DNA of 64,000 nt, taken from assembly GCA_902614085.1 (NCBI GenBank), contig CACMJS010000004.1, positions 1 to 64,000 of the forward strand, in the 5' to 3' direction. Positions within the stretch are counted from its first letter, which is position 1; the number at the start of each line of letters is the position of its first letter. Positions 54,061-63,173 of this stretch are shown one piece after another. Made by a program: the position numbers and the translations under genes. The DNA is from an uncultured Alphaproteobacteria bacterium. GTDB taxonomy: Bacteria; Pseudomonadota; Alphaproteobacteria; HIMB59; GCA-002718135. Under the pieces are notes generated by a model. It was not told the origin of the DNA. It worked only from the letters and a program-made list of their open reading frames with translations, and made no database searches.

Positions 54061-54918
54061 TTAAAAATCGAGAATTTTTTTATATAGATCGGGCCTTCTG
54101 TCTCTAAAGTTACCCCATAATTTTCTATATTCTCTTGAAATTAACAAGTCTAAAGTCGCAGTTATTATTCCCTCATCCTTATCATTCATACGATTTATTA
54201 CATTTCCAAGATGATCCAATATAAATGAATTACCATAAAAATTTAATTCAATATCTGCTTCGACCTCCTTCCCTATTCTATTTGAAGTTATTATAGGGAT
54301 TTGATTTGCAGCAGCATGTCCTACCATTGTATTAATCCAATGATCTTTTGAATTTAATTCAGGCATGTGTGGCTCAGAACCAATTGCTGATGGATATAAA
54401 ATTAAATCTGCACCTTTCAACGTTAGTATTCTTGCACATTCAGGAAACCACTGATCCCAACAAATTGCACAGCCAACTTTTGCTAGAGGGGTGTCAAAAA
54501 CCATAAAACCTGTGTTGCCTTTTTCAAAATAATACTTCTCATTATATCCAGGCCCTTCAGGGATGTGGGATTTATTATAGACTTCACTTATTTTACCGAA
54601 AGAATCAATCATAACTAGAGAGTTAAAAAACTTATTTTCCTTTTTTTGAAAAAAACTAATTGGTAATGAAATATTTTTATCTTTACAAATATTAGATAAT
54701 TTTTCGAACATTGGATTAGAAGGAAAATCAATTGCAAGATCAAAAAATTTATCATTTTTTGTTGAACAAAAATAATAATCTTGAAATAATTCTTGCAGAA
54801 GTAAAATATCAACATTTTCATTTGATGCTTTTTCAACTAAACTAATTGCTTTATTTAAATTAGCGTCAAAGTCTCCTTTAATAGCCTTGAATTGTGATGT
54901 TGCTACTTTTACTTTCAT
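54061..54918 (-). CDS. aguB: N-carbamoylputrescine amidase
   Basis: This 285-aa nitrilase-superfamily enzyme has the Glu-Lys-Cys triad Glu43 (LLQELFQ), Lys116 (YNKSHIPEG) and Cys153 (GCAICWDQWFPE). AguB hydrolyses N-carbamoylputrescine to putrescine, CO2 and ammonia. I use the ATG at 54918 because it forms the classic 4-bp ATGA overlap with the aguA stop, and family similarity starts at KVKVATSQF. The track's start (54945) adds nine unsupported residues. Confidence 0.93.
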   Translation of the reverse strand: MKVKVATSQFKAIKGDFDANLNKAISLVEKASNENVDILLLQELFQDYYFCSTKNDKFFDLAIDFPSNPMFEKLSNICKDKNISLPISFFQKKENKFFNSLVMIDSFGKISEVYNKSHIPEGPGYNEKYYFEKGNTGFMVFDTPLAKVGCAICWDQWFPECARILTLKGADLILYPSAIGSEPHMPELNSKDHWINTMVGHAAANQIPIITSNRIGKEVEADIELNFYGNSFILDHLGNVINRMNDKDEGIITATLDLLISREYRKLWGNFRDRRPDLYKKILDF

Positions 54919-55898
54919 ATTTTTGGTACATTCATTGTTATACAATGAATATTTCCACCACCATAATTTATATTTTCTGTTTCCAACATCATAATTTCTC
55001 TATTTGGGAATAACTTTTCAAAAGTTAATTTTACCTCATTATCTTCCTTAACATTGAATTTAGGTAAGATAATTTTATTTTTACTGAAATAGAAATTTAT
55101 ATATGAACTAATAATATTCTTATTATTAATCTTTTTTCTTGTGGGTAAAGGAACTTCAATTAAATCAAATGTCTGATTAGTATCTATAAAAAATTTAATA
55201 AGATCAGCTTTGTTTTTTTCTAATATTTCATAATTAGGATCTAATTTGTGAGTTGTGGCAATTAAATATTGATTTTTTCCTATCGGGCATAATAAATTAT
55301 CGACATGACCATCTGTATCATCCTCCATTAGTCCATTTTCAAATAAAAAAATATAATTTAAGTCAAACAAGAGCTTTAATTCTTTAATAATATATTCACT
55401 ATTATGTTTTTGTTTTCTATTTTTATTAAATATTACATTTTTAGTACTAAATAAATTTTTTTTATCATCATAAGTTATTGCTCCTCCTTCAATAACTAAG
55501 TCAGAAATTTTTGTTGGGATATTTAAATAGTTTGAAATAAATTTTGATATTTTATTATCATTTAAATAATCTGGATACTTTCCATAACCATTAAATTCAA
55601 AGCTAATTGATTTTAATTTTTCATTTTCATTATAAAAAATTGGTGCAATATCTCGCATCCAAGAATCATCTAATTTACATTCTATAATATCTATATTTTT
55701 ATGATCAGTTTTATTTTGAATTTCATTAATGTCTTCTTTATTTGACAAAACAATAACTTGCTCAGTTTTTGCAATTTCATTAATTACATTTGCAACTTCA
55801 TCTCTAGCTTTATTAATAATTTTACCATAAAGATCTTTATTACATGGCCAAGCAATCAAACAATATTGGTGTTCATGCCATTCAGGAATTAGTTTCAT
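54915..55898 (-). CDS. aguA: Agmatine deiminase
   Basis: AguA converts agmatine to N-carbamoylputrescine and ammonia. This 327-aa guanidino-group hydrolase has MPEWHEHQ-like PEWHEHQYCLIAWP at its start, DSWMRDIAPIF, EDDTDGHVDNL and the nucleophile Cys319 in GGGNIHCITMNVP. It is the first gene of the minus-strand aguA-aguB-potFGHI run, linking agmatine use with putrescine import. Its start lies only 28 bp from that of the divergent HD-domain gene. Confidence 0.93.
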   Translation of the reverse strand: MKLIPEWHEHQYCLIAWPCNKDLYGKIINKARDEVANVINEIAKTEQVIVLSNKEDINEIQNKTDHKNIDIIECKLDDSWMRDIAPIFYNENEKLKSISFEFNGYGKYPDYLNDNKISKFISNYLNIPTKISDLVIEGGAITYDDKKNLFSTKNVIFNKNRKQKHNSEYIIKELKLLFDLNYIFLFENGLMEDDTDGHVDNLLCPIGKNQYLIATTHKLDPNYEILEKNKADLIKFFIDTNQTFDLIEVPLPTRKKINNKNIISSYINFYFSKNKIILPKFNVKEDNEVKLTFEKLFPNREIMMLETENINYGGGNIHCITMNVPKI

Positions 55899-55926
55899 AA
55901 AATTTAAAAATATGTATAATTATTTC

Positions 55927-56490
55927 ATGTCTAAAGATGAAGTAAAATTCACTGAAATGAAACATGGTGATAAAGAGGATTATGAACTTCTTGCTAATTT
56001 TGAAGATAAATTTATTGAAGGTACAGCTGATAGAATAGTAAGAGTGCTAGAAAGTTTAGACAATTCTCTAGGTGGCTATAAGGTATCTAGATTAGAACAT
56101 TCTCTTCAAACTGCATCAAGAGCGTTACGTGAACAAGCTTCTGAAGAAATGGTGGTAGCCTCCTTATTGCATGATATAGGTGATGAAATTGCACCTCTTA
56201 ATCATTCTGAACTTGCAGCTGCAGTATTAAAACCTTTTGTGTCTGAAAAAACAAGATGGATTGTAGAACAACACGGTTTGTTTCAAGCCTACTACTATAA
56301 TCATTATTATGGAAAAGATAGAAATCTAAGAGATAAGTTCATAGGTCATGAATTCTTTAAAGACACCATAGATTTTTGTGAAAGATGGGATCAAGCATCA
56401 TTTGATCCAAATTATGATACAATTCCTCTAAAAGAATTTGTTCCAATGGTTCAAAGAATATTTAATAGAACACCTTATAGAAATTTATAA
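55927..56490 (+). CDS. HD-domain protein, candidate PhnZ-like diiron oxygenase
   Basis: This 187-aa HD-domain protein resembles PhnZ, the mixed-valent diiron oxygenase that cleaves 1-hydroxy-2-aminoethylphosphonate. All six expected metal ligands are visible in order: His58 (RLEHSLQ), His82/Asp83 (LLHDIGDE), His93, His116 (VEQHG) and Asp155 (ERWDQ). The 24-residue spacing from the first to the second ligand equals that in PhnZ as I remember it. The PhnZ Tyr24/Glu27 gate is replaced by Leu/Tyr (Leu48, Tyr51). The start at 55927 is chosen over 55912, but both are weakly supported. Its setting between agmatine and carnitine genes suggests an amine or phosphonate substrate. A plain phosphohydrolase is the alternative. 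Confidence 0.7.
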   Translation: MSKDEVKFTEMKHGDKEDYELLANFEDKFIEGTADRIVRVLESLDNSLGGYKVSRLEHSLQTASRALREQASEEMVVASLLHDIGDEIAPLNHSELAAAVLKPFVSEKTRWIVEQHGLFQAYYYNHYYGKDRNLRDKFIGHEFFKDTIDFCERWDQASFDPNYDTIPLKEFVPMVQRIFNRTPYRNL

Positions 56491-56958
56491 TTATTTTTTT
56501 AACTTGTTGATTAGTGTAAGGTTACCTGGATCAAAGTTATTTTTATTTTCTTGAATAAATTTATCTATATCTTTTTGCTTTTCTAATTCTAATTCAGAAA
56601 CTTTTCTAATATTTAAATCAACATACAAAGAACAAACCTCTGTTGTTGCTGCTCTGTAACCTTCAAGCTTATGAGTCATTTCTAATTTGTAAATTAATCT
56701 TTTTTTATCCCTATCAAGAAATAACAAATTAATATCTACTTCATCGCCCTCTTTCACTTCTTTGTCATAAGTTGTGTGTGACTCTACGGCAAAAGTAGTT
56801 TTCTTCTCTGTTTTTGCAGAAGTTTCACCCATATTAAATTTTTGTAAAAGAACTTCCCATCCAGCATCAAAAAGATGAATATAAAATGCTAAATTCATAT
56901 GACCATTGTAATCTGTCCATTCTTTTTTAACTCTTCCTGAATTTAAATATATCTTCAT
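56491..56958 (-). CDS. Hot-dog thioesterase, likely betainyl-CoA thioesterase
   Basis: This 155-aa 4HBT-fold protein has the active-site motif TDYNGHMNLAFY, with the likely catalytic Asp16. In several bacteria an equivalent domain is fused to, or encoded beside, L-carnitine dehydrogenase. There it hydrolyses betainyl-CoA to glycine betaine. The neighbouring BKACE and carnitine dehydrogenase genes make this the best assignment. It is divergent from the BKACE gene with a 42-bp gap and abuts the HD gene tail to tail with no gap. Confidence 0.78.
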   Translation of the reverse strand: MKIYLNSGRVKKEWTDYNGHMNLAFYIHLFDAGWEVLLQKFNMGETSAKTEKKTTFAVESHTTYDKEVKEGDEVDINLLFLDRDKKRLIYKLEMTHKLEGYRAATTEVCSLYVDLNIRKVSELELEKQKDIDKFIQENKNNFDPGNLTLINKLKK

Positions 56959-57000
56959 TGTTTTTCTTTATTAATTCAAAAAATATTGTAGTTTAAAATA

Positions 57001-57891
57001 ATGAATAATGAAGTAATAATTTCGTGTGCTGTAACTGGATCAGGAGATACAGCAGGCAAACATCCTGAATTACCTATAACACCAAAACAAATTGCTGATG
57101 CTTCAATTGAAGCTGCCAAAGCGGGTGCAGCAATAGCTCATGTACATGTAAGGGAACCTGATGGCAAACCTTCTAGAAATTTAAGTTATTATAAAGAAGT
57201 AGCAGATAGAATTCGCTCTTCTGATACTGATGTAGTTTTAAATTTTACTACAGGTATGGGTGGTGATTTTGAAGTTGGAACAGGTAAAGATCCTTTAAAT
57301 CCAGTGGGAGCAAATACAGATATGATCGATGCATTAAGCAGATTAGAACATGTTGAAGAGTTATTACCTGAAATTTGTACTTTAGACTGCGGATCACTAA
57401 ATTTTGGTGACTCAAACATGACATTTATTCATACACCGATACAACTAAGAACTGCAGCAAAAAAAATGCAGGAGCTTGGAGTGAAACCAGAAATGGAAGC
57501 TTTTGAAATGGGTCATTTATGGTTTGCTAACCAACTTTATAAAGAAGGTTTAATTGATGGTCCTCCCTTTTATCAAATATGCCTTGGTATACCTTGGGGA
57601 TCACCTGCAACAACGAGCGCAATGAAAGCTATGGCTGAAATGGTACCTTCTGAAGGTATTTGGTCTGGATTTGGAATAGGAAGATCGCAAATGCCTATGG
57701 CTGCACAGGCAGTTATATTGGGAGGAAATGTTCGTGTGGGACTTGAAGACAATCTTTATTTAAAGAAAGGAGTTTTTGCATCAAATGCACAGTTAGTTGA
57801 AAAGGCAAGGTGCATTGTTGAAGATATGGGAGCTTCTATTTTATCACCGCAACAAACAAGAGAAAAATTAAAACTAAAAAAACATTTTTAA
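57001..57891 (+). CDS. Beta-keto acid cleavage enzyme (DUF849), likely 3-dehydrocarnitine-acting
   Basis: This 296-aa TIM-barrel BKACE protein has the zinc ligands His47 and His49 in [10 protein letters not shown] and the start [12 protein letters not shown]. Family enzymes split a beta-keto acid using acetyl-CoA. With a carnitine dehydrogenase starting 1 bp downstream and a thioesterase divergent upstream, the likely reaction is 3-dehydrocarnitine plus acetyl-CoA to betainyl-CoA plus acetoacetate. Substrate choice in the DUF849 family varies widely, so context carries the call. Confidence 0.85.
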
Positions 57892-57892
57892 T

Positions 57893-58813
57893 TTGAAAAA
57901 TATTGCTGTCATTGGAACTGGTGTTATTGGTACCGGCTGGATACTTAGATTTCTAGCTAATGGTATAAAAGTCAAAGCATTTGATAAAAATTCTCGGCAA
58001 ATAAATTTTCTAAAAGCAGAAATAGCAAGAACAAACTTAATTATAAAAAAATTATATAATACAAAGATCAATTTCAAAAATTTGGAAATCGTAGACAATA
58101 TTGATGAAGCAGTGAAAAATGCAGATTTAATTCAGGAAAATGTACCTGAACGATTATCTTTAAAAAAAGATGTTATAAAAAATATAAGTAAATATTCACC
58201 CACAAATGCAATAATTGCATCAAGTTCATCTGGTTTACTTCCATCAGATTTACAATCAAAATGTATTAATCCAAAAAGATTAATTATAGCTCATCCATTT
58301 AACCCTGTGTATATTCTCCCATTGGTTGAAATTGTAAAAGGTAAAAAAACTACAAATTTATATCTTAATAAAGCAAAAAAATTTTATCAAAAAATTAAAA
58401 TGAAAACATTATTTGTAGAAAAAGAATTGCCAGGTTTTTTATCTGATAGATTGCAAGAAGCTTTGTGGAGAGAGGGTTTACATATTGTAAACGATGGATA
58501 TGCTTCAACAAAAGATTTAGACGAAGCGATTACTTATGGTCCTGGTATGAGATGGGCTCTAATGGGAACTTTTCTTACATTTCATCTGGCTGGAGGAGAA
58601 ATGGGCATGAAACATATGTTAGATCAATTTGGACCAGCATTGAAACTTCCATGGACTAAACTTAAATCTCCAAAATTATCAAAAAAACTTAAAGAAAAAA
58701 TCATTAAAGGCACAAAAAAACAATCAAATAATCATTCTATTAAAGATTTAAGTAACATAAGAGATAATTTTTTAATAGATTTGCTAGAATTAAAGAAAAA
58801 ATATAAATTATAA
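57893..58813 (+). CDS. lcdH: L-carnitine 3-dehydrogenase (3-hydroxyacyl-CoA dehydrogenase family)
   Basis: This 306-aa NAD-dependent enzyme has the Rossmann motif IAVIGTGVIGTGW, then QENVPERLSLKKDVI. The catalytic-histidine region is IAHPFNPVYILPLVEIV, and FLSDRLQEALWREGLHIV follows. This set is typical of carnitine dehydrogenase in the 3-hydroxyacyl-CoA dehydrogenase superfamily. It would oxidise L-carnitine to 3-dehydrocarnitine for the BKACE encoded just upstream. The start is a TTG one base after the BKACE stop. It lacks the fused thioesterase domain seen in some homologues, which here is a separate gene. Confidence 0.87.
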   Translation: MKNIAVIGTGVIGTGWILRFLANGIKVKAFDKNSRQINFLKAEIARTNLIIKKLYNTKINFKNLEIVDNIDEAVKNADLIQENVPERLSLKKDVIKNISKYSPTNAIIASSSSGLLPSDLQSKCINPKRLIIAHPFNPVYILPLVEIVKGKKTTNLYLNKAKKFYQKIKMKTLFVEKELPGFLSDRLQEALWREGLHIVNDGYASTKDLDEAITYGPGMRWALMGTFLTFHLAGGEMGMKHMLDQFGPALKLPWTKLKSPKLSKKLKEKIIKGTKKQSNNHSIKDLSNIRDNFLIDLLELKKKYKL

Positions 58814-59823: not shown

Positions 59824-61263
59824 CTAAATTGTAACATATGGTGATGTCCCTCGATATTTTATATCTAATTTGAGTTCTTTATCAATTGGTGGAAAAGCTC
59901 TTTGCTGACATTCTACTCTAGGGCAAATTCTACAAGAAACTCCAATTGGCATTTGTAACTTTTTATTATTTAAATCAATTCCCTCAGAATAAATAAGATC
60001 TTTAGCGTATTTCATATCACAACCTAAACCAATTGAAACAAAACTTTTAGGCATTCCATGTTTTTCAATTCCTTTCTCAAAAGCTCTTGCTATACAAAAA
60101 TATACTCGTCCATCAGGCATTTTAGATATTTGAGGATGAATTTTTCCAGGATTTAAAAATGCAGTATACACATTCCACCTAGGACAAGAACCTCCATGTC
60201 TTGGTATATGAATACCAGATAAAGAAAATCGCTTGGACACATTTCCAGCAATATCTGTTTTTAAAAAATGAAATGGCACTCCTTCATTTCCAGGTCTTTG
60301 AAGATTTGTTAATCTATGTGTAACTTGTTCAAAACTACAAGCATAATGATGCATCAAAATTTCCACATCATATTTATGTAATTTAGCACTCTTTAAAAAA
60401 TCGTTATAAGGCATCATAAAAGCAGCAGCATAATAATTTAGTAAAGATAGTTTAAGCAAAGGTTCTACTTCTTCTGACTCAATATTATTATCTTTAATAA
60501 CTTTATTGATTACATCATTAGCTTCTAAATAAGCAACTTGTGATGCTAAATGAAAATTTCTTGATGTATAAGTTAACATTTCAGAAAGATAAAAAATCTT
60601 GGATTTTTCATCAAATCTTTTAACTATTTTTTCATCTTCGTTGATGGTTACTATTTTAACATCAATTCCGTGTTTTTTTTTAAGATAAGATGATAATTTA
60701 GATCCTGAACCAATGTTAGGCCCAGTTTCAAGACCTATTTCTTTTCTTAGATTTTCAGAACTAATTTCTAAATCATGAAAGTAATTTTTATTTTCTTGAA
60801 GAATATCTGAAACTATTTCTACAGGTAGTCTTGTTGGTTTTTCTATTTGATTTGCATTGACATCCATCGTTTCAAGTCGATTTTGCATATCTTCTTTAAA
60901 GCTTTTAAAAGAATCATTTATTGTCAGTAATGCTTTAGCTATGTTAGGATTTGAACCAATGAAGTCACTTGTGTCGTGATTGGTTATCTTTAAATCATCA
61001 AAAATTTCATTGCTTAAAACATCCATTACGTCTGAAAGAAGTCGTTTGCTAGATTCTGTTGAGAAGTCTTTAATTGATAAATCTAATTTATCAGCTGCTT
61101 TAATTAGTAAGGAAAGCGGTATTTTTCTTTTTCCACTTTCAATTAAATTTAAATAACTAGGCGATATGCCAATAGTTTTTGATAATTCAGCTTGTGAAAA
61201 ACCTTTGCTTATCCTTTGTTTTTTTAACCTTGGGCCAAAATTTATGTCAGATTCAATATTCAT
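59824..61263 (-). CDS. XRE-family ScfR/RamB-like transcriptional regulator
   Basis: This 479-aa regulator has an N-terminal HTH_3 domain (about residues 12-66, SQAELSKTIGISPSYLNLIESGKR). A middle IrrE-like helical domain follows, in which the HExxH protease motif is absent (FHLASQVAYLEA). The C-terminal domain is of the short-chain fatty acyl regulator type. Conserved cysteines occur in GGSCPRWN, YFCIARA, GLGCDMKY and SCRICPRVECQQRAFPP. Relatives (ScfR, RamB, MccR) respond to acyl-CoA status and control propionate or glyoxylate pathways. Here the neighbours suggest control of acetyl-CoA/acetoacetate-yielding carnitine or choline use. Tandem repeats at its own start hint at autoregulation. Confidence 0.83.
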   Translation of the reverse strand: MNIESDINFGPRLKKQRISKGFSQAELSKTIGISPSYLNLIESGKRKIPLSLLIKAADKLDLSIKDFSTESSKRLLSDVMDVLSNEIFDDLKITNHDTSDFIGSNPNIAKALLTINDSFKSFKEDMQNRLETMDVNANQIEKPTRLPVEIVSDILQENKNYFHDLEISSENLRKEIGLETGPNIGSGSKLSSYLKKKHGIDVKIVTINEDEKIVKRFDEKSKIFYLSEMLTYTSRNFHLASQVAYLEANDVINKVIKDNNIESEEVEPLLKLSLLNYYAAAFMMPYNDFLKSAKLHKYDVEILMHHYACSFEQVTHRLTNLQRPGNEGVPFHFLKTDIAGNVSKRFSLSGIHIPRHGGSCPRWNVYTAFLNPGKIHPQISKMPDGRVYFCIARAFEKGIEKHGMPKSFVSIGLGCDMKYAKDLIYSEGIDLNNKKLQMPIGVSCRICPRVECQQRAFPPIDKELKLDIKYRGTSPYVTI

Positions 61264-61280
61264 TTACAAAATTTACAAAA
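61263..61280 (-). promoter_or_regulatory. Tandem 9-bp operator-like repeat at regulator start
   Basis: On the minus strand TTTTGTAAA occurs twice in perfect tandem, and the second copy runs into the regulator's ATG (GTAAATG). The same kind of repeat, with the same 9-bp period, lies against the start of the divergent small ORF. Binding sites of ScfR/RamB-type regulators contain TTTGCAAA-like half-sites, so this is a plausible autoregulatory operator. Confidence 0.6.
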
Positions 61281-61320
61281 TCAATAAATTCAAAGTAATT
61301 TTCTTTACATCAAAAATAAG

Positions 61321-61336
61321 AAAAACTCTAGTTTTT
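61321..61336. repeat. Inverted repeat between the two operator-like sites
   Basis: AAAAACT-CT-AGTTTTT is a 7-bp-arm palindrome with a 2-bp centre, located about midway between the two TTTGTAAA tandem pairs. It could be a second binding site or simply chance in AT-rich DNA. Confidence 0.3.
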
Positions 61337-61352
61337 TTTAGTTTTTTTATGT

Positions 61353-61370
61353 ATTTGTAAAATCTGTAAA
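61353..61370 (+). promoter_or_regulatory. Tandem 9-bp operator-like repeat at small-ORF start
   Basis: ATTTGTAAA followed directly by ATCTGTAAA forms a tandem pair with a 9-bp period, ending one base before the ATG of the 59-codon ORF. It mirrors the repeat at the start of the regulator gene in sequence, spacing and position relative to the start codon. There is no room for a Shine-Dalgarno, so the message may be leaderless or weakly initiated. Confidence 0.6.
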
Positions 61371-61371
61371 T

Positions 61372-61551
61372 ATGAACAGTAAATTAACAGAAAATATTAA
61401 TAATCAAAAAGAAAGCCTAGAGCAGAGTTCTATTGAGAAAAAGGTTCTTGAAGGATCTATAGACTCAAATTATGACCTTAATCTTTCTGATGGTATCGAA
61501 GCATACTACAGCGAAAGATACGGTTGGACTCTTAGAAGAAAAACTATCTAA
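61372..61551 (+). CDS. Uncharacterised 59-aa protein, divergent from ScfR-like regulator
   Basis: This ORF is absent from the supplied track because it is just under 60 codons. The translation has an N-terminal polar, glutamate/asparagine-rich half and a C-terminal half, LSDGIEAYYSERYGWTLRRK, that looks constrained (aromatic and charged residues, better codon variety). It is the only ORF filling the 308-bp gap between the regulator and betA, and a tandem repeat abuts its start. I do not recognise the family. No membrane segment or signal peptide is seen. It may be the regulator's direct target or a small effector. Confidence 0.6.
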   Translation: MNSKLTENINNQKESLEQSSIEKKVLEGSIDSNYDLNLSDGIEAYYSERYGWTLRRKTI

Positions 61552-61571: not shown

Positions 61572-63173
61572 CTAACTAACGGTACTCTTTATTTGTTCGC
61601 AAGCTTTTTCAGCAATCATAATAGTTGTTGCATTTAAATTAGCACTAACAATATCTGGCATTACAGAAGCATCAATAACTCTTAAATTTTGAATTCCATG
61701 AACCCTCAGGTTTTGGTCTACAACTGAAGTTTTGTCCTCACCCATTTTATTTGTGCATGAGGGATGATACGCAGATTCAGATGTATTTTTAATAACTTCA
61801 TCTAATTCATTTTGATTAGATACATTCTTTCCAGGCCTAATTTCTGTGCCAACATATTCTTTTAGTGCTTTTTGAGACAAAATTTTTTTAGCAATACCTA
61901 TACCTTCTCTCATTTGTTTTAAATCGTCTTCATGCTTAAGATAATTAAATTGTATTTTAGGATCATCTTTATAGTTATTTGTTTTAATTTTAACAAACCC
62001 TCTACTTTTTGGTCTATTTGGACAAACATGAAATTGAAAAGCTTCAAAATTAGGATTTTCTAAACCATGATTAATAACTAAGTATGGAAAAAAATGAAAT
62101 TGTAAGTTTGGATGATTATATGATTTGTCAGATTTAACAAAACCCCCTAACTCTAAGTGTGAGTTTGCCAATCTACCTTTTTTAAATAAAAACCATTTTG
62201 ATCCTTCAATTGCTTGATAAAGAAAATTTGTTGCTAAAGAATGTAATGTTTCATTTTTTTTAGATTTATATTGAATATACATCTCTAAATGATCTTGTAA
62301 ATTTTCTCCCACCCCAACTAAATTATTAATTACTTCTATTCCCAAGCTTTTAAGATATGTTGAATTACCTATTCCAGATAATTGAAGAATTTTAGGAGAA
62401 TTAATTGAACCTGCACAAAGTATAACTTCTTTATTTGCTATATATTTACTTGTTACATTTTTTTTTATTGTTTCAACACCAATTGCAGTTTTATTTTTAA
62501 AAAGAATTTTTTTTACATCAATATTATTTATTATTCTAAGATTTTTTCTATTTTGAATTGGTTCTAAGTATGCCTTAGCAACACTTTGTCTGACACCGTT
62601 GTTTATTGTTACATCAAAAGTTCCAAAACCTTCATTATCAATATTATTAGAGTCATTAAATATTTTATATCCAGCTTCTTTTGCAGCTTCTAAAACTTTT
62701 TTGAATAAAAGATATTTTTTATCTATGTTTGACTTATTTACTTTTAATGGCCCCTCATTACCTCTTTCATTACTATTATGAGACCAAGTTTCTAATTTTT
62801 TAAAAAAAGGTAAAACTTTTTCATATGACCAATCAGTTAAACCACTTGAAGACCATCTATCAAAATCCTCTTTATGACCTCTAGCAAAAACCATTCCGTT
62901 ATGCGAAGAGCATCCCCCAATCATTTTACCTCTTGGACAATATAAAGATCTATTATTTAGAAACGGTTCAGGCTCCGTATAATATTTCCAATTATATTTT
63001 GGGTCATGCATTGCATATAGAAGTGCACTTGGCATATCAACTTTCCAGGTTTTACTCGATGGGCCAGCTTCTAATAAAATTACCGAATTCTTTGATTGTG
63101 AAGACAATCTGTTAGCTAAAACACAACCTGCTGACCCTGCTCCAACAATGATGTAGTCAGCGTTGTTATCCAC
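61572..63173 (-). CDS. betA: Choline dehydrogenase (GMC oxidoreductase)
   Basis: This 533-aa FAD enzyme of the GMC family is close to E. coli BetA by eye. It shows DYIIVGAGSAGCVLANRLS, YYTEPEPFLNNRSLYCPRGK, GVGENLQDHLEMYIQY and the active-site His470 in SAYHPSCTNKMG. The C-terminus has NLNATTIMIAEK. BetA oxidises choline to betaine aldehyde at the membrane. A betaine aldehyde dehydrogenase gene is not in the window. It overlaps the SDR gene by one base and is probably in one transcript with it. Another alcohol substrate cannot be excluded in this broad family. Confidence 0.8.
   Translation of the reverse strand: MDNNADYIIVGAGSAGCVLANRLSSQSKNSVILLEAGPSSKTWKVDMPSALLYAMHDPKYNWKYYTEPEPFLNNRSLYCPRGKMIGGCSSHNGMVFARGHKEDFDRWSSSGLTDWSYEKVLPFFKKLETWSHNSNERGNEGPLKVNKSNIDKKYLLFKKVLEAAKEAGYKIFNDSNNIDNEGFGTFDVTINNGVRQSVAKAYLEPIQNRKNLRIINNIDVKKILFKNKTAIGVETIKKNVTSKYIANKEVILCAGSINSPKILQLSGIGNSTYLKSLGIEVINNLVGVGENLQDHLEMYIQYKSKKNETLHSLATNFLYQAIEGSKWFLFKKGRLANSHLELGGFVKSDKSYNHPNLQFHFFPYLVINHGLENPNFEAFQFHVCPNRPKSRGFVKIKTNNYKDDPKIQFNYLKHEDDLKQMREGIGIAKKILSQKALKEYVGTEIRPGKNVSNQNELDEVIKNTSESAYHPSCTNKMGEDKTSVVDQNLRVHGIQNLRVIDASVMPDIVSANLNATTIMIAEKACEQIKSTVS

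Follow-up and report, generated by a model that had tools for sequence, protein, structure and literature searches.

Tandem TGTAAA-type repeats between an ScfR/RamB-type regulator gene and a divergent small gene: a probable ScfR operator with counterparts in marine phages

In the window (the whole stretch of 64,000 nucleotides analysed here), a gene for an ScfR/RamB-type regulator and a divergent gene of 59 codons each carry a 9-bp tandem repeat at the start codon. This raises the question of whether the repeats form an operator and, if so, which protein binds it and which genes it controls. The original prediction held that one regulator controls both genes through tandem pairs that touch both ATGs. 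Both pairs were located, together with a middle element, M (Table 1); they are direct repeats with a period of 9 bp and have the same orientation relative to their own genes. Contact with the start codon holds for box B, which overlaps the ATG of the regulator, whereas box A is separated from the ATG of the small gene by one T.

Table 1. Positions in the window of the divergent gene pair and of the repeat elements between the genes.
Feature	Position	Strand	Remarks
ScfR/RamB-type regulator: HTH, IrrE-like domain, ScfR C-terminal domain	59824..61263	minus	Pfam, NCBIfam, PrpR match
Box B, regulator-side 9-bp tandem TTTGTAAATTTTGTAAA	61263-61279	minus	last A is the A of the regulator ATG (61263-61261)
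Middle element M, TGTAAAGAAAATTACTT	61293..61309	minus	single remaining half-site in the source genome
Box A, small-ORF-side 9-bp tandem TTTGTAAAATCTGTAAA	61354-61370	plus	one base (T) before the ATG at 61372
59-codon gene, predicted N-terminal helix and conserved C-terminal beta-hairpin	61372..61551	plus	pN/pS, co-occurrence, AF2
Near-invariant hairpin motif IEAYYSERYGWTLRR, codons 42-56	61495..61539	plus	alignment A1, phage homologues

The regulator combines an HTH (HTH_3, 50.8 bits) with a C-terminal PF09856 domain (208.7 bits, residues 321-476), the combination that marks the ScfR family, and also matches Peptidase_M78. It is the sole PF09856 match and the only ScfR in the genome. Against the NCBIfam RamB equivalog NF038139 it scores 414.5 bits, under the cutoff of 700, and is therefore RamB-like rather than RamB by the NCBIfam definition. 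The match to the M. tuberculosis PrpR structures reaches 263 bits. The [4Fe4S] ligands of PrpR are Cys363/447/450/455 (PMC6765138), and their counterparts are present in the regulator as Cys360/444/447/452; C360 and C444-X2-C447-X4-C452 are invariant in an alignment (A4) reaching 38% identity. In the ScfR tree, the host family, to which the source genome belongs, joins L183, which has isocitrate lyase as a neighbour, with support of 100/100; the deep forks are unresolved, and L196 forms a long branch. The regulator probably descends from RamB-like glyoxylate-cycle regulators. RamB proteins of class 2 are placed beside glyoxylate-cycle genes, whereas the partner of this regulator is the small ORF.

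The exact tandem, TTTGTAAA-N-TTTGTAAA (that is, TTTGTAAANTTTGTAAA), occurs once in the 1,648,007 bases of the genome, at the start codon of the ScfR/RamB gene; there are two sites with one mismatch, and box A at the divergent 59-codon ORF is one of them. When up to two mismatches were allowed, 62 matches were found in the genome versus 45 for the reversed control, and since this count is just modestly above the control, the weak matches carry no meaning. Dinucleotide shuffles of the window gave a mean of 1.37 matches at up to two mismatches; the significance therefore lies in the high scores and in the joint placement at two start codons, not in the count. In all 10 further genomes searched, exact TTGTAAANNTTGTAAA is present at the ScfR locus, and it occurs elsewhere in only two of them. 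Nearly all of the near-matches examined among the best 30 sites per search fall inside coding frames, and within these sites the tandem search of the 10 further genomes found no regulon beyond the pair of regulator and small ORF. The genome scan that the original prediction had proposed thus returned a single exact site and no scatter of similar tandems. A scan for promoters and terminators gave nothing above shuffles.

It had also been expected that the pairs would be kept in relatives with the same gene pair, and this was borne out. For 64 close genomes with 53 distinct intergenic sequences, the mean column entropy of each element was compared with that of the remaining columns (0.573). Box B is near-invariant (0.008, p=2e-6), element M is strongly conserved (0.108, p=1.5e-4), and box A is less conserved (0.309, p=0.02). 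In a wider set of 84 relatives, whose regulators are 65-100% identical, box B and one half-site of M were found in 84 of 84 and the half-sites of box A in 81-84, while two extra half-site positions are present in 17-19. More boxes are found in the distant relatives, whose regulators are only 65-74% identical. There, an array of seven half-sites within about 118 bp comprises box A as a 9-bp pair next to the small ORF, element M as a complete 9-bp pair (GGTAAAtctTGTAAA), and three or four half-sites at box B with spacings of 8 and 9, in some cases 9-8-9. This full array is common to several host genera. Element M may accordingly be seen as a third box that is degenerate in the branch of the host genus and complete in the distant relatives. 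The tandem pairs are real and greatly exceed what chance would give. The explanation that they arose by chance in A+T-rich intergenic DNA, in whose favour the mild excess over the reversed control could be cited, is refuted by the conservation in 84 genomes, by the uniqueness of the exact site and by the identical coordinates found in phages (see below), so that its probability is negligible.

The 9-bp spacing had been considered unusual. However, it is ordinary for the ScfR family, as published sites and further ScfR loci of the class indicate. The footprint of M. tuberculosis PrpR reads TTTGCAAA-N1-TTTGCgAA, i.e. it has a 9-bp period (PMC3420887). In Paracoccus denitrificans, two RamB boxes were proven by mutation and biolayer interferometry, and the 15-bp mutated blocks are CTGTAAGGTTTGTCA and CAGTCAGTATTGTCA on one strand (oligonucleotides 46-49; PMC10370305); in our reading, each of them can be taken as GTMA repeated at 9 bp. 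At the class-level ScfR loci, TGTAAA pairs that match at least 11 of 12 positions were found with a 9-bp period in 7 of 29 loci, and no other period occurs in more than 3; of the periods from 7 to 21 bp compared in the DNA ahead of ScfR genes, just 9 and the composite 17 (8+9) are prominent. Isocitrate lyase or malate synthase adjoins the class-level ScfR gene in 9 of 10 tested cases. Composite TGTAAA arrays were observed upstream of four ScfR genes that face isocitrate lyase or malate synthase (L184, L185, L187 and L188), with the composite spacing of 8+9 bp in L185 and L188; judging from such arrays in other Alphaproteobacteria, the triple of box B type may be general for the ScfR class. The features of an ScfR operator, two TTTGYAAA-like units with a 9-bp period near the start of the regulator or target, are found at our locus. 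The proven sites and the like tandems adjoining ScfR genes elsewhere agree with the earlier suggestion that the motif fits the ScfR/RamB family. On the strength of the proven sites of relatives, we assign the boxes to ScfR, and the repeats are very probably operator boxes of the adjoining regulator.

The same evidence bears on the alternative that the repeats work at the mRNA level and serve both start codons as an element of translation initiation. The like orientation of the two pairs relative to their genes and their position at or next to the ATG would suit such a role. However, the exact motif lies at no other start in the genome, the conserved middle box is far from both starts, and the class-level tandem sites stand at varied distances from gene starts, which makes an mRNA element highly improbable.

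The gene on the other side of the boxes encodes a protein of 51-59 aa that is specific to the host family and always stands beside ScfR. The C-terminal hairpin of this protein, AYYSERYGWTLRK, hardly varies. Purifying selection acts on the gene (median pN/pS 0.08), and among close relatives the hairpin motif has pN=0 at pS=0.30. In the AlphaFold2 model of the protein, a helix is followed by a C-terminal beta-hairpin over EAYYSERYGWTLRR, which is predicted with confidence (pLDDT 84-89 across the hairpin). This small protein was found in 84 of 110 genomes of the host family, all of them among the 89 that are ScfR-positive. In the five genomes with ScfR only, the ScfR matches are cut off on the N-terminal side, as would happen at contig ends; both proteins are missing from 21 of the 110 genomes. 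Outside the host family, no credible match to the small protein was found in 385-386 sampled genomes of the class; weak matches in other Alphaproteobacteria, nearly all inside long frames, were judged to be due to chance. Searches of Pfam, PHROGs, PDB sequences, and BFVD and PDB folds, DNA-binding folds included, returned nothing significant for it. As for the surroundings of the pair, a choline dehydrogenase-like GMC oxidoreductase gene (61572-63173; 698.8 bits, over the NCBIfam PRK02106 cutoff) is convergent with the small ORF. A carnitine-type catabolic cluster (54915-58813) contains a thioesterase, a beta-keto acid cleavage enzyme and a carnitine 3-dehydrogenase-like gene, and adjoins an HD-domain gene similar to phosphonate oxygenases and an agmatine deiminase-like gene.

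Isocitrate lyase, the classical target, was found neither in the source genome nor in any of the 110 genomes of the host family. Malate synthase was not found in the source genome either; it is present in 20 of the 110 genomes, where its open frames come in two sizes, 536 aa and about 620-746 aa, which suggests two types of malate synthase within the host family. We propose that the host family lost isocitrate lyase and that the regulator and its operator stayed. The boxes would then give the single ScfR of a SAR11-like lineage that lacks this enzyme an operator and a likely regulon, and point to an unstudied small protein as the present target of the regulator.

Homologues of this small protein are encoded by contigs of uncultured marine phages. 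Viral contigs were scanned with the small-protein profile for short ORFs bearing the hairpin motif. In a first phage group, the hairpin gene stands beside a gene for DNA polymerase A, which shares 48-56% identity with its counterpart in HTVC023P-type pelagiphages and relatives, and the contigs also carry primase, helicase, endonuclease VII and virion genes. The protein of this group (MQQEQTLKILSDLTKKDIEKVYKTQAYYSERYGWTLRR...) is 61% identical over 36 alignment columns to a host protein of genus g4, and the helix-plus-hairpin is predicted alike for host and phage proteins. In two other phage groups the hairpin is fused to a Cys-rich tail, and the neighbour genes are closest to those of pelagiphages HTVC023P and HTVC104P. 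Widespread among marine viral contigs (L216-L224, L232-L301) is a small phage protein rich in Cys (CKNCGHGCHCSDGSSCQSCDCKNCEH), which stands alone or in frame behind the hairpin motif NAYYSERYGWTLKK.

In the first phage group, TGTAAA-8-TGTAAA-9-TGTCAA immediately precedes the hairpin gene, and a TGTAAA pair in mirrored orientation immediately precedes the divergent gene. A DNA search of the viral contigs with the array alone returned 55 contigs. In 13 of these a hairpin ORF lies within 400 bp of the array, and none was found in 656 kb of comparison loci; the protein search had already given six of the 13, and the array search added the other seven (L319, L342, L369, L321, L340, L357 and L346). 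The half-sites of L340, in a region of 118 bp, lie at -61, -52, -28, -20 and -11 from one end and at 5 and 14 from the other, and these seven positions are those of the host relative L136. Likewise, L346 and L323 share -60, -51, -27, -19 and -10 with host L148. Phage regions score up to 39 of 42 against the host geometry, and 1000 shuffles at most 30. In the phage stretches of 5-13 kb examined, the tandems are confined to a single intergenic region. The opposite side of this region leads into a glucosaminidase/endolysin gene in L346 and L340, where the genes facing the hairpin gene (L346:728-1575, L340:5509-6048) encode a small secreted-looking protein and the glucosaminidase/endolysin; the arrangement suggests that lysis genes are under the same array in these two contigs. 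The phage contig L319 (2777-3128) has an array of ten half-sites and encodes two successive small proteins, of which one (LANMTQRDIERINKK) is diverged and the other contains YEAYYRQRYGWSIRKK; genes for a DNA ligase, a ClpP-like protease and a CHASE2-guanylate cyclase lie near by.

A pattern-based scan of limited sensitivity found no ScfR in the viral contigs. No credible match to the small protein was obtained in isolated phages, and no hairpin ORF was seen at the corresponding place in pelagiphages HTVC023P, HTVC027P and HTVC104P. The hairpin motif also occurs without the array, in the L216-type and L222-type phage groups. The G+C content of array-bearing phage contigs ranges from 0.31 to 0.48, and not all of these phages therefore need infect the host lineage. 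The simplest reading of small-protein homologues behind a like layout of half-sites is that phage genes are wired to the host regulator, and it is possible, though somewhat less likely than not, that the phages use the ScfR of the host. With similar reserve, we suggest a portable control module of host and phage: a divergent promoter with the same operator of seven half-sites would drive the hairpin homologue on one side, a host acyl-CoA sensor would time phage genes, and in one group the lysis-type glucosaminidase cluster would lie opposite.

A phage origin, in which bacteria captured the small protein and its operator after the loss of the glyoxylate cycle, concerns the direction of transfer only and is compatible with ScfR control of both genes. 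The hairpin protein occurs in several phage groups and, among the bacteria sampled, in one family only, as such a capture would predict; however, boxes of this type belong to cellular ScfR genes at large, the full array is shared by several host genera, and 14-36 alignable residues are too few for a rooted tree. We consider this origin possible but somewhat doubtful. The phage contigs, in which operator and small protein travel together and no ScfR was found, might also be explained if the boxes were bound by another factor, such as the small protein or its complex, in a self-contained autoregulated unit shared with phages. This is unlikely, since ScfR genes are preceded by the same 9-bp TGTAAA tandems in genomes in which the search detected no small protein, the proven ScfR sites of two other genera are built alike, and the predicted fold resembles no DNA-binding fold significantly.

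ScfR itself thus remains the favoured binder, and it probably controls both its own gene and the small gene, as the original prediction had it; the conservation and rarity of the boxes and the proven ScfR sites support such a layout at the level of sequence. Each box consists of two TGTAAA half-sites 9 bp apart, one box lying at the start region of the regulator gene, one at that of the small gene and a third between them. In the mechanism that we propose, ScfR, which by analogy with M. tuberculosis PrpR is probably tetrameric and carries a [4Fe4S] cluster and a CoA thioester, would bind these boxes, repress its own gene and control the small gene. The position of boxes A and B on the start codons makes repression of both genes by blocked initiation the most likely mode. 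However, Paracoccus RamB acts as activator and repressor (PMC10370305), so that activation from the middle box is possible and the sign of control can only be guessed from where the boxes lie. If the analogy with PrpR holds, acyl-CoA and the Fe-S state would set ScfR activity, and a change in the acyl-CoA pool would release or switch both genes. The small protein would be the output or effector, whose beta-hairpin may bind one conserved cellular partner. An autoregulated ScfR operator with a small effector would then have been copied between bacteria and phages. If this is true, marine phages plug into a metabolic sensor of the host by carrying the operator, not the regulator, and the near-invariant hairpin offers a handle for finding the partner that bacteria and phages both target.

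Among known systems, the prpR-prpD operator of M. tuberculosis PrpR (PMC3420887, PMC6765138) is similar in having a divergent regulator of the ScfR family with its gene near the site and two 8-bp TTTGCAAA-like units separated by a single base, i.e. a 9-bp period. In contrast to the host operator, it has one box only, with C instead of T in the centre, and it serves the methylcitrate operon and icl1 as targets rather than a small protein. P. denitrificans RamB (class 2; PMC10370305) also has several boxes in a divergent ramB-target region, and we read each proven 15-bp block as a 9-bp GTMA repeat; however, its boxes are separated by 18 bp and lie 82 bp ahead of the target, which is malate synthase and the glyoxylate cycle, and RamB is an activator there. 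The sites of Corynebacterium glutamicum RamB (PMC4448153), likewise of the ScfR family, share the TTTGCAAA core but are single 13-bp motifs (AA/GAACTTTGCAAA) of a class 1 RamB. XRE control of a small-protein gene is described for the Caulobacter XRE regulators, TgrL of phage phiCbK and HfiA (PMC10462132), where host and phage share one binding specificity; phiCbK carries the regulator, whereas the marine phages carry the operator and the small protein instead. The operator itself is therefore of a known type. What is new is that it is paired with a small protein specific to the family where isocitrate lyase is missing and, above all, that phages have the same layout with a homologous protein.
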